Assembly (NCBI GenBank): GCA_020152595.1
Contig: JAIGNY010001262.1
Span: 505,001 to 569,000, forward strand
Source of the DNA: Chiridota heheva
Taxonomy: Eukaryota > Echinodermata > Holothuroidea > Apodida > Chiridotidae
Length of the DNA: 64,000 nucleotides
Direction: 5' to 3'
The translations under genes and the position numbers were made by a program. The notes under the pieces are model-generated. The model searched no databases and was not told the DNA's origin. It saw only the letters and a program-made list of their open reading frames with translations. Of this stretch, positions 30,001 to 36,000 are shown in pieces. Position 1 is the stretch's first letter; the number at the start of each line of letters is the position of its first letter.

Positions 30001-33000
30001 AAGTTATGTAAAGGTACAGTATGTAATATTTATGAAATAGTTATGTAATAGAGTAGAACGGCATAGCTACCCAATTTTTGAGATATCACTTAGAATGAAT
30101 TTTAAAGAACAAAAGAAAATTACGAACCTGCTGAGGCCAGCCATGAACAGCAAATGGAAAAATACCTGATGAAAACCACGTGTCCAGCACGTCTTCATCT
30201 AGCGCAATCAAAAAGAATATAAGCAAATTGAAAAATAATCTATTTCATCAATTAAAAGGGATTGTACTATTTTGTACCAGCATAGCCCACATAATATTGC
30301 CTGCATGACCATTTTTATTGCTTGACACACATTAAAGAAAGATAACTTAAAAACTTTCGAATAATTCGAAATTATTTTAAAAAGTTTTCCAAACTGCAAA
30401 AATTTGATTCTTTGTAAACTTGACTTTGACTTAAAAGCTGAGAGTGTTTGTTGCCTTACCCTTATGCTCTTTTGACCATAATGAAACATGCAATACGTGA
30501 GATTTGTGATACCCAATATGATTCTACAGGTTGAGTATTGTATTTCTACCCTGCTCGACATCGTACCTTGTTGTAAATGTACACTGTCTTTGTTGACGCC
30601 AAGTCTTAACGCTGCCTTCTCCTGAGCTTCAGTTTCAGTATGTGCACTCACCCAAACTTCTTTTTCCTCCTTCAAATTAAAATCAAAATCAAAATCCAAT
30701 GAATAATTTGAACAAATTTTTTAGACACAGAGTGTCACACTCTTGTCTGGCTTTGCCATTAGTAGACTGCAATACAGGAAACTATTCTATATGAAATGAA
30801 TTTGAATGATACATTTTTTTGGGCATTAGGAACCCATTGTTGAAAATCTTGTGGTTCTTCCCACAAACATACGAGATTGAATAGTTTGAAATAAAAATGT
30901 AATTTTCTTACACCTTAATAGCGTGTAACGTACATGAGCAGATGGGCAAAGCATGTTCTTGTAAAATGTATGTTTAGGGATTAGTTCAGTGGTCCAGCAA
31001 GTCTACTTTATATGAAAGAGGACTTCAAACGAAACAAAATGGTGAAGAAAGCATTTAAAAATCTTATTCCGTTAAGGAGATATTTAAGTTTAAATTGGTA
31101 TCATTTGTGTAGGAACGACTGAAAGCAGCCTCAGCCATCACGGCCTCAGATTCCTCAAAATCTTTATGTATTCTATCATATTTTGGCCTGCAATTTTGTG
31201 GCTGAAAAACATATGTCTGTGAAGTAGTAAAACATAATCTAGTAAAGGGTAATTAAAATTTACCACCTGAAGAAAATTTTTGGGAAAAATAATTCAAATA
31301 GTAAAAACGTAAAAAAAAAAATCTTTTAAAATACATTTTAACAATTGTTAAGAATGAAAGGATAAGGGTGCCAACTTTTCATAGTACACTTTCTTCACCA
31401 GTCATTTCTACACAGATAAGACAGAGCTTTAAACTAGAATATCTCCTTAACGGAGTAAAGTTTTTGAATTGTTTTCTGCATCAATTTGTTTCTTTTAGAG
31501 TTCCTTTCATATAAGATAAACTTCTTGACCACTGAACTAATCCTCTAATATTCAAAGAAATACATAAAAATTGTTTTGGATCTGCAATGTTAACACACTT
31601 GTGAAATATATTAGCTACAAAACGGAATAAGATATCAATATGGTTTTTAAATCAATTGTTTCTTTCATAGTCCTTTATTATACATATAAAAATGAGAATT
31701 CATGGTTATATCCTTTATTGTAGATGTACTGAAACTACCAAACATTTAACATCAACATACAAATTGTCTCTCTCACCTTTTTCTTTGGCGCAACAACTCT
31801 GTAAGCTGGTATCCTATGACCCCACCACAACTGTCTGGAGATACACCAATCCCTGGCAAAAAACACAAAACATTAAAAGTAAAATATAAATCATGGCACA
31901 AAAACAACAACCATAAAATATAAAACATAACAATTTTCTGAAAAATTAAAAGATATAACACATAGGTTTAATTAACTATATCAGGAGTGTTGTAAGAAAC
32001 CTTGAATTTTTTCTACGCTGACTTCTTCATCTTGTCAAAAGAAGTTTTCCTTTGCCAAACATGAAGAACTTCTTAGTATTTTTGCAAATCCAAGACTAAT
32101 GTTTATGTTTATATCTTTAAAAATTTCTTGCCATTTTTAAAAGTTAGTAAAAACATTTTTCTTCAATTATTTACAAAAGGACATGCACTTTACAATGGAT
32201 GTTTAGCCTATCTGCTCATGTACCTTACACTCTAAGTGCAAGACACTAATTAGCCTTACACTTTAAGTGCAAGACACTAATTAGCCTTATACTCTAAGAT
32301 GCAAGACACTAATTAGCCTTAAACTCTAAGTGCAAGACACTAATTAGCCTTACACTCTAAGTGCAAGACACTAATTAGCCTTACACTCCAAGTGCAAGAC
32401 ACTAATTAGCCTTATACTCTAGATGCAAGACACTAATTAGCCTAATACTCTAAGTGCAAGACACTAATTAGCCTTATACTCTAAGTGCAAGACATTAATT
32501 AGCCTTACACTCTAAGTGCAAGACACTAATTAGCCTTACACTCTAAGTGCAAGACACTAATTAGCCTTACACTCTAAGTGCAAGACACTAATTAGCCTTA
32601 CACTATAAGTGCAAGATACTAAATTGTTTTTATTCCACACACTGGTGAAATCTTTGAACTGCAATTACTCCACAGTGGAATATGGCATCAACATGTTTTG
32701 TTTCACCAATTTATTTCTTTATGATCCTCCATCATTTTACTGAAAAAATTTACAGAAAAAATATTATGAAAGTAAGGTTTTACCTGATAATGTTCAACCA
32801 ATGAGTCCACGTTTCTTACCTGATGTTGTTCAACCAATGGGTCCACGTTTCTTACCTGATATTGTTTAACCAATGGGTCCATGTTTCTTACCTGATATTG
32901 TTCAACCAATGGGTCCACGCTTCTTACCTGATGTTGTTCAACCAATAGGTCCACGTTCTTACCTGATATTGTTTAACTAATGGGTCCACGTTTCTTACCT

Positions 33001-36000
33001 GATATTGTTCAACCAATGGGACCATGTTTCTTACCCGATATTGTTTAGCCGATGGGTCCATGTTTCTTACCTGATATTGTTCAACCAATGGGTCCATGTT
33101 TCTTACCTGATATTGTTCAACCAATGGGTCCATGTTTCTTACCTGATATTGTTCAACCAATGGGACCACGTTTTGATGTGCATCTCTGGAACGATTTTTA
33201 ACTGTCCCTCCTCTACTGCCTTCACTGCTGACTCTGCCATTTGCTTACAATCAACAAACCATTGCTCCTTCATCAGAGGTTCAACTATATCTTTAGAACG
33301 ACTGAAAGGGCAGAGAGAATATCATCATTTATTCATAAGATAGGGTTAGAATATGATCATTCAAAAACATTTTTAGAAAATAAAAAATGTAATAATCAAT
33401 TGCTGGGATGCTGTCTGGTATCTGTCACACATTACAGGATCAGTTCACTGGTCAAGCATGTCCATAAAGGATCAGTTCAGGGGTCAAGCATGTCCATAAA
33501 GGATCAGTTCAGGGTCAAGCATGTCCATAAAGGATCAGTTCATGGGTCAAGCATGTCCATAAAGGATCAGTTCAGGGGTCAAGCATGTCCATAAAGGATC
33601 AGTTTAAGGGTCAAGGATGTCCATAAAGGATCAGTTTAAGGGTCAAGGATGTCCATAAAGGATCAGTGCAGGGGTCAAGGATGTCCATAAAGGATCAGTT
33701 TAAGGGTCAAGGATGTCCATAAAGGATCAGTTTAAGGGTCAAGGATGTCCATAAAGGATTAATTCAGGGGGTTTAAGGATGTCCATAAAGGATCAGTGCA
33801 GGGGTTTAAGGATGTCCATAAAGGATCAGTTCCGGGGTCAAGCATGTCCACAAAGGATCAGTTTAAGGGTCAAGGATGTCCATAAAGGATTAGTTCCGGG
33901 GTTTAAGCATGTCCATAAAGGATCAGTGCAGGGGTCAAGGATGTCCATAAAGGATCAGTGCAGGGGTCAAGGATGTCCACAAAGGATCAGTTTAAGGGTC
34001 AAGGATGTCCATAAAGGATTAGTTCGGGGTTTAAGCATGTCCATAAAGGATCAGTGCAGGGGTCAAGGATGTCCATAAAGGATCAGGATCAAGCATGTCC
34101 ACAAAAGGGTCAAGGATGTCCATAAAGGATTAGTTCTGGGGTTTAAGCATGTCCATAAAGGATCAGTGCAGGGGTCAAGGATGTCCATAAAGGATCAGTG
34201 CAGGGGTCAAGGATGTCCACAAAGGATTAGTTCCGGGGTCAAGCATGTCCATAAAGGATCAGTTTAAGGGTCAAGGATGTCCATAAAGGATTAGTCCCGG
34301 GGTTTAAGCATGTCCATAAAGGATCAGTGCAGGGGTCAAGCATGTCCATAAAGGATCAGTTTAAGGGTCAAGGATGTCCATAAAGGATCAGTTCCGGGGT
34401 CAAGCATGTCCACATCGTATGAAGAAAAACTTCAAAAGAAACAAAATGGTAAAGACAGCTTTCACATAGCTTATTCCGTTAAGGAGATGTTTAACTTTGA
34501 AGTTTGGTATCATTTGTGTAGAAACGACTGAAATCAGACTAGTTGTGATGTCACTGCCTTAGATTCCTCAAATTCTTTATGTATTTTATCATATTTTGTC
34601 CTTCGAATTTGTGGCTTAAAAACCATTGGATACGTCATAAAAGTAGTAAAACAGAATCTTGTAAGGGTAATTATAATTTACCACCTGAAGAAAGTTTGAG
34701 GGAAAAATTGAAATAGGAAAAAAAGTTAAATACATTTTCTTTAAAATACATTAACAATTGTTTGATGTGAGGATAAGGGGGCCAATCTTTCATGGTAGAT
34801 CTAACTAGTACACCAGTCATTTCTACACAGATGAGACAGAGCTTTAAACTTGGATATCTCCTTAATGGCAAAAGATTTTGAAACGGTTTCTTCACCATTT
34901 TGTGTCTTTTAAAGTCCTCTTTCATTTAAGATAAACTTCCTTGACCACTGAACCAATACTTTAAAGTTAGTTACCTGCATGTCCCCAGTTTCTTTGGCGT
35001 AAGTACATAAGAACCCATGGAAACCACTGCAGCAAGCAAAGAATAGCATTTTTTAATTGTCTAATTTTTTAATAACATGTTTCCTGGAATCTTAATTAGT
35101 TAATATGGAATTTTTTCCTTGCATTCAGTTACTTCATGTTTGAATCATTGTTTGCAGGAAGTGAAAACAAAGTGTGTATAAATCAATCACTCAATCAATA
35201 TATCAATCACTCAATCAATAAATCAATCACTCAAACAATATATCAATAAATCAATCACTCAATCAATATATCGATCAATCCAAAGCATTGGTAAAGACTT
35301 CTTTTGTCTTTGTACCTGCAAACAGGGACCACCATCGGATTCTCCTTCCGCCCTTTGTACAGACCCATCTCTTTGAGAGCAACAGTAATCTCATTTCTAG
35401 CATCAAACCTCTTCAATCCCTGTAAGAGGAAAAAAAACAAAGTCCTACCATTCCTATGGTTTGCAAACGCAAAGCAGGAAACAAAATAATCAATTCAAAA
35501 ATAGCAAAACTGCCGTTTCAGTAAATGAACAGCATCATGGCCGTGAAACGTTGGCACAATGTTGTCACTATGTCTACAAGTTTCTTTACTATTATACGAT
35601 TAAACAACAGGGGAACCATTAAAGAAAAGCATCTTTGAGGCAATCAACTTTATAGAGGCCCCTGCCAGATTAAGCCTGGTAAAGGTGTGAGGCAAAAAAT
35701 ATTTTGAGACTGATCTCAACATCAATCTGGAGTGGGAAACAGCCCCTAGGGATTCTGCCAAGGTTATACCCTATGCATGGCAAAAGAAAATGATGAAACT
35801 GGGCAAAATAAATTATAAACGTATGACTTCAGTGAAACAAACAATTCATCTTCTCAGTCTATGTTTTTGTCTAATTTTTGTGCTGGGAGCAAATGCCCAG
35901 TGTTCAGCCCAGGAAAAGAAACACAGGCAGTTGGTAACATGTCACAACCTGAGTGAAAATCTACCTGAAATCTTGGAGCTGGTGATAAAATATGTCCGCT

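Follow-up and report, generated by a model that had tools for sequence, protein, structure and literature searches.

Two donors (5′ splice sites) of the valyl-tRNA synthetase (ValRS) gene of the holothurian Chiridota heheva lie inside minisatellites whose copies of an exon end and its donor extend into the downstream intron. The gene occupies the minus strand of the window analysed here, a stretch of 64,000 nucleotides (GenBank assembly GCA_020152595.1, contig JAIGNY010001262.1, positions 505,001 to 569,000 of the forward strand; coordinates below are window positions). Array 1 adjoins the tenth modelled exon, exon j, and array 2 adjoins the earlier exon b. We consider it probable that array 1 is an intronic minisatellite of the kind called a 'mirage' in amphioxus, a by-product tolerated in a genome rich in minisatellites and not a regulator.

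The ValRS gene and exon j

ValRS exons were located by tblastn with the human cytosolic ValRS sequence. The model joins twenty exons between 57194 and 12265 through GT..AG introns and encodes 832 amino acids without a stop; its product matches the valine--tRNA ligase family TIGR00422 (NCBIfam) at 967.6 bits, where the cut-off is 612.1. The 20-exon model and all counts given here leave out at least three exons of the C-terminal part (near 9.0, 4.2 and 3.0 kb). Exon j, numbered 12 in an earlier note on this DNA, is the tenth of the model, and further 5′ exons may fall beyond the window. The 3′ end of a late ValRS exon at 4050-4245 is uncertain, as judged by eye: a GC-type donor, AAAG/GCAAGT (the slash marks the exon-intron boundary throughout), breaks the frame into the following exon, and CAA/GTAGCT keeps it. 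The earlier note had called the gene VARS2. Valyl-tRNA synthetase it is, and the paralogue named was probably the wrong one: the product scores 60.3% and 1055 bits against human VARS1 and 53.5% and 832 bits against human VARS2, and its nearer paralogue is probably the cytosolic VARS1, not the mitochondrial VARS2. A PDB search with the 54-amino-acid exon product returned 0 matches at 0.001.

The features around exon j are as follows.

33143..33301, minus strand: ValRS exon j, 159 nt; its final 31 bp form the exonic copy with which array 1 begins
33137..33145, minus strand: true 5′ splice site of exon j, CAG/GTAAGA, phase 2
32780..33173, minus strand: array 1, a 36-bp minisatellite (Tandem Repeats Finder, TRF: 11.0 copies, 91% matches)
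32783..33106, minus strand: ten decoy donors of array 1, each unit an exon end followed by a donor
31777..31852, minus strand: ValRS exon k, next after j (G GAT TGG TGT...), which fits a phase-2 intron of 1290 nt
32223..32622, no strand assigned: a further 31-bp minisatellite in the intron between j and k, not donor-spanning
33436..34412, no strand assigned: a further 32-bp minisatellite in the intron 5′ of exon j, not boundary-spanning

Exon j ends ...AACAATATCAG/GTAAGA, with its last base at 33143 and the intron G+1 at 33142, and exon k completes the split codon (AG/G GAT TGG). The ValRS frame is open only if the upstream-most donor is used at exons j and b. Exon j remains intact beside array 1, which sits in the intron, and the 832-amino-acid reading is continuous across the junction. 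The earlier note had placed the last coding bases of the exon inside the repeat; the ValRS frame, the TIGR00422 match and the 31-bp overlap all support this.

Array 1 repeats an exon end with its donor

Cut at the donor, array 1 consists of one exonic copy and ten units in the intron, of which nine measure 36 bp and one 35 bp, followed by GTAAAACC. Each unit joins the 31-bp end of exon j to the 5 bp of intron adjoining it. All ten intronic units begin GTAAG and they end in ATATCAG (six), ACATCAG (two), ATATCGG (one) or TTATCAG (one). The 15-mer CAATATCAGGTAAGA, allowing at most 2 mismatches, has 11 matches in the window, every one inside array 1, where 0.22 are expected by chance and 2 was the maximum in 100 shuffles. 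The 36-bp periodicity reported earlier is thus that found by TRF, and the match between the unit and the end of exon j with its donor supports the proposal that coding sequence and a 5′ splice site seeded the intronic array. By eye, AAAC or AAAAC occurs in both exon and intron at the breakpoint.

Among the ten units, 13 of the 36 columns are variable. In array 1, adjacent and non-adjacent units differ by the same number of mismatches (3.4 vs 3.4). The variable columns argue against an array or a copy number produced by misassembled repeats, even with an identical pair in units 1 and 2, as do the unique flanks on both sides, which join a continuous gene. Such artefacts have precedent in amphioxus, where passages of PMC3902484 describe two lancelet sequence versions that differ in the copy number of a PGBD5 boundary repeat and passages of PMC3087553 a globin mirage aberrantly assembled in the draft. 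For array 1 we regard misassembly as extremely unlikely.

A second donor-spanning array in the same gene

Exon b and the intron that follows it carry an equivalent arrangement.

55446..55573, minus strand: ValRS exon b, ending ...TTGATTAGATG/GTAAGT, phase 2, which seeds array 2
55077..55461, minus strand: array 2, unit of 32 bp, 12.0 copies (TRF), with 11 downstream donor positions

Here the unit pairs 15-16 bp from the end of exon b with 17 bp of intron, with breakpoint microhomology of about 1 bp (by eye). Reading through the true donor gives TGG TAA in a phase-2 intron, as at exon j.

To ask which splice sites have been copied, boundary-spanning 24-mers (at most 5 mismatches) and 22-mers (at most 4) from the 20 donors and 20 acceptors were matched against the window's whole minus strand. 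Only donors j and b were found elsewhere, with 10 and 11 copies respectively by 22-mer and 9 and 10 by 24-mer; two of the 20 modelled donors and none of the 20 acceptors are therefore affected, no acceptor having yielded a copy with either probe length on that strand. Exon-only 20-mers (at most 4 mismatches) matched once, distantly, for the start of exon c and likewise once for that of exon r; we take both as chance.

Two other repeats lie close to splice sites. At 31854-31930, ending 2 bp short of exon k, a weak 41-bp repeat of the pyrimidine tract is present in 1.9 copies with 78% matches, possibly an early-stage analogue on the acceptor side. At 16575-17919, a 30-bp array of 45 copies starts about 12 bp past the exon q donor (the exon ends at 17932) and excludes that donor.

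Most decoy donors match or approach the true donors in strength

Donor strength was taken as U1 duplex energy. The true donor of exon j, at -11.0 kcal/mol, is the strongest among the 20 modelled donors. Its decoys have their G+1 at 33106, 33070, 33034, 32998, 32962, 32927, 32891, 32855, 32819 and 32783; eight pair at -11.0 kcal/mol, one at -10.3 and the last (GTAAAA) at -8.3, so that nine of the ten equal the true donor or differ from it by at most 0.7 kcal/mol. The stack of about ten near-identical donors described in the earlier note is thereby recovered, with a correction: its positions 33139, 33103 and 33067 are each 3 too low, G+1 being 33142, 33106 and 33070. In array 2 the true donor pairs at -9.1 kcal/mol and 8 of the 11 downstream positions equal it; the remainder are a weakened GTAAAT (-5.3 kcal/mol) and two that have lost the GT (ATAAGT and GAAAGT), with energies of -2.5 and -4.4.

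Read-through beyond the true donor of exon j gives AGG TAA, arginine and then a stop, immediately, just as the earlier note had said. Decoys 1-5 preserve the frame, each lengthening the exon by a multiple of 36 nt; decoys 6-10 lie past the 35-bp unit and shift it. Because the in-frame TAA comes first, all array 1 decoy products are nonsense whatever the frame. The nonsense outcome predicted earlier for distal donors thus stands, and the accompanying statement that only the upstream donor is in frame does not.

Predicted accessibility of the RNA was considered as a cause of upstream donor choice and rejected, true donors and decoys being alike in both arrays (true donor 0.049 and decoys 0.010-0.082 in array 1; 0.002 and 0.002-0.016 in array 2). 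Donor choice is therefore unexplained by either sequence strength or local folding.

The density of strong U1 sites raises the possibility that the arrays serve as a U1 platform, in which clustered intronic sites would reinforce exon definition or protect the long intron against premature polyadenylation. The two arrays together hold 17 decoys at -9 kcal/mol or below, compared with 22 further sense sites, none of them a donor, across the remaining gene-model span, and a donor downstream of an exon can promote recruitment of both U2AF and U2 at the acceptor upstream (passages of PMC8724738). Set against this, exon j already has the strongest donor of the 20, and outside the arrays sense and antisense sites number 57/102 at -8 kcal/mol, 22/53 at -9, 18/9 at -9.5 and 16/6 at -10. 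We therefore judge a U1 platform quite unlikely. Whether strong donors are enriched on the sense strand in general varied with the threshold, and with such mixed results this idea was likewise set aside.

Minisatellite density nearly suffices

To ask whether two donor-spanning arrays exceed chance, the 77 rows reported by TRF were first cleared of seven small arrays (9897, 10093, 24783, 30020, 38688, 52468 and 59429; units of 1-3 bp, or copy numbers below 3) and then merged by hand to give 34. These occupy 42% of the window, with 26 inside the gene model; examples in the window are a 61-bp unit in 92 copies (40265-45827) and a 20-bp unit in 177 copies (4702-8226). Random placement of the 26 gene-model arrays, destroying no exon and counting exon overlaps of at least 10 bp, led to an expectation of 0.35 donor-spanning arrays, with a probability of 0.29 for at least one and 0.047 for at least two; for at least two at either exon end it was 0.15. 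The repeats themselves far exceed chance; their placement at exon ends does not clearly exceed it. Minisatellite density alone is nearly sufficient to account for the donor-spanning arrays, and at a density this high occasional boundary-spanning arrays are inevitable.

Both arrays fall in phase-2 introns, which are 4 of the 20 modelled, a coincidence with a chance of about 0.03 when calculated post hoc. The GT is kept in ten of ten array 1 decoys; in array 2 it is destroyed in two of 11 and a further donor is weakened. Decoys have been lost in array 2 and not in array 1, which gives no consistent sign of their purging or retention.

These observations bear on the idea that array length acts as a rheostat, with decoys competing for splicing, some transcripts meeting TAA and decaying, and copy number tuning ValRS output. 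The strength of the decoys (nine of ten in array 1 and eight of 11 in array 2 at or near the true donor), their nonsense products and the placement of both arrays in phase-2 introns with GTAA, two of the four phase-2 introns among 20, count in its favour. The lack of a consistent selection signal on decoys, with those of array 2 decaying, speaks against it, as do passages of PMC3902484 in which the amphioxus Adh and troponin C mirages are reported without aberrant mRNAs. We regard the rheostat as unlikely, and hold as similarly improbable the broader proposal that donor-spanning arrays are tolerated, or even maintained, only where phase 2 with GTAA or GTGA stops every decoy product, decay serving as a safety valve and copy number as a heritable rheostat.

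Other features of the window

Open frames at 37261-38193, 28208-28699 and 29557-30003 resemble, by eye and with no search made, remnants of non-long-terminal-repeat retrotransposons. On the minus strand, 38367-38441 is tRNA-Cys-like with anticodon aca (ARAGORN), possibly a short interspersed nuclear element or a pseudogene. Rfam gave 0 matches at the gathering threshold.

Relation to known systems

Mirages were described in amphioxus as tandem repeats that span exon/intron boundaries, in Adh3, the globins BflGb6 and BflGb9, and troponin C (passages of PMC3087553 and PMC3902484). As in those cases, the ValRS unit spans the boundary, carries AG/GT signals and adjoins an intact exon, and the 10-72 bp unit range given in passages on Adh3 covers the 32 and 36 bp of ValRS. 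PGBD5 repeats of amphioxus are similar in the account of PMC3902484, in part, being imperfect and partly within predicted exons. ValRS differs in having two donors of one gene affected and in the length of its arrays, with 10 and 11 downstream donor positions of which 17 of 21 pair at -9 kcal/mol or below; BflGb6, as described in passages on that gene, differs in turn in that its acceptor side is duplicated, in units of 150-160 bp. On their letters, the ValRS arrays fit the structural definition of a mirage minisatellite and constitute a clear new example of this known class, with two arrays in one gene and many intact decoys. Among the matches listed in the openly licensed literature, where ValRS was not queried, none beyond the two amphioxus papers was recognised as dealing with boundary-spanning minisatellite arrays. 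Tandem repeats reportedly also modify gene structure in human (PMC2812944).

The tandem donors of DOK7 intron 4 also place several good donors at one exon end, one choice being truncating (passages of PMC5585400). There the two sites lie 11 nt apart, unlike the 11 and 12 positions of ValRS, which are spaced by 36 nt (once 35) and 32 nt; the ValRS donor series, in contrast to that of DOK7, arose by repeat expansion.

A further comparison is with intron gain by tandem duplication of an AGGT segment, which shares a first step with the ValRS arrays, the duplication of AG/GT (passages of PMC3087553). Array 1 could on these grounds be raw material for new introns or for an exon extension, as the amphioxus globin model in passages of that paper proposes, and every intronic unit is bounded by AG/GT or GG/GT. 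The units appear by eye to contain no polypyrimidine tract, early units carry the in-frame TAA that bars coding use, and no change of exon structure is visible, all of which make a nascent intron or exon change very unlikely. Unlike intron gain by duplication, ValRS has duplicated the donor of an existing intron, and no new intron is seen. Potato RdRp is reportedly another case of intron gain by tandem duplication (PMC4974935).

A probably tolerated mirage

The copies are evident from the letters of the arrays, and their order of origin can be reconstructed as follows. A short tandem duplication would have captured the last 31 bp of exon j with the first 5 bp of its intron, and the duplicate would then have expanded like any minisatellite to ten intronic copies; a second, independent event at exon b would likewise have taken up 15-16 bp of exon and 17 bp of intron. 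The upstream-most donor may win over equal U1 sites through exon definition, being the one joined to a real acceptor and a full exon, and the copies would remain intronic because that donor is used. Transcripts spliced at a decoy would meet TAA at once and are expected to be substrates of nonsense-mediated decay, the pathway that removes transcripts with an early stop. Leakage to decoys would be harmless because both introns are in phase 2 with GTAA donors. Passages of PMC3087553 and PMC3902484 describe the Adh3, troponin C and globin mirages as leaving splicing undisturbed, and by analogy with these amphioxus arrays, reported to splice normally, the upstream donors of ValRS may be spliced regularly too.

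Several points weigh against a tolerated mirage. The evidence that the upstream donor is used comes from the protein frame, not from transcripts, and neither U1 pairing nor predicted accessibility favours that donor. According to passages of PMC5585400, hnRNP A1 favours intron-distal donors and SRSF1 intron-proximal ones, so that SRSF1-type regulation can favour the intron-proximal site. The amphioxus globin paper itself, in passages of PMC3087553, allows that splice signals in mirages could serve as cryptic sites. Finally, two donor-side arrays with no acceptor-side array have a probability of 0.034 under random placement, which leaves room for a mild donor bias.

The ValRS arrays line up, as a natural series, near-identical 5′ splice sites behind a single exon end. 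Sequence strength cannot pick the winner among these donors, so the contributions of position and exon definition to the choice are isolated. The arrays also show a minisatellite-rich genome copying splice signals into introns, the proposed first step of some intron gains. If it held true genome-wide, the phase-2 pattern would show that decay of nonsense transcripts shapes where such repeats survive.

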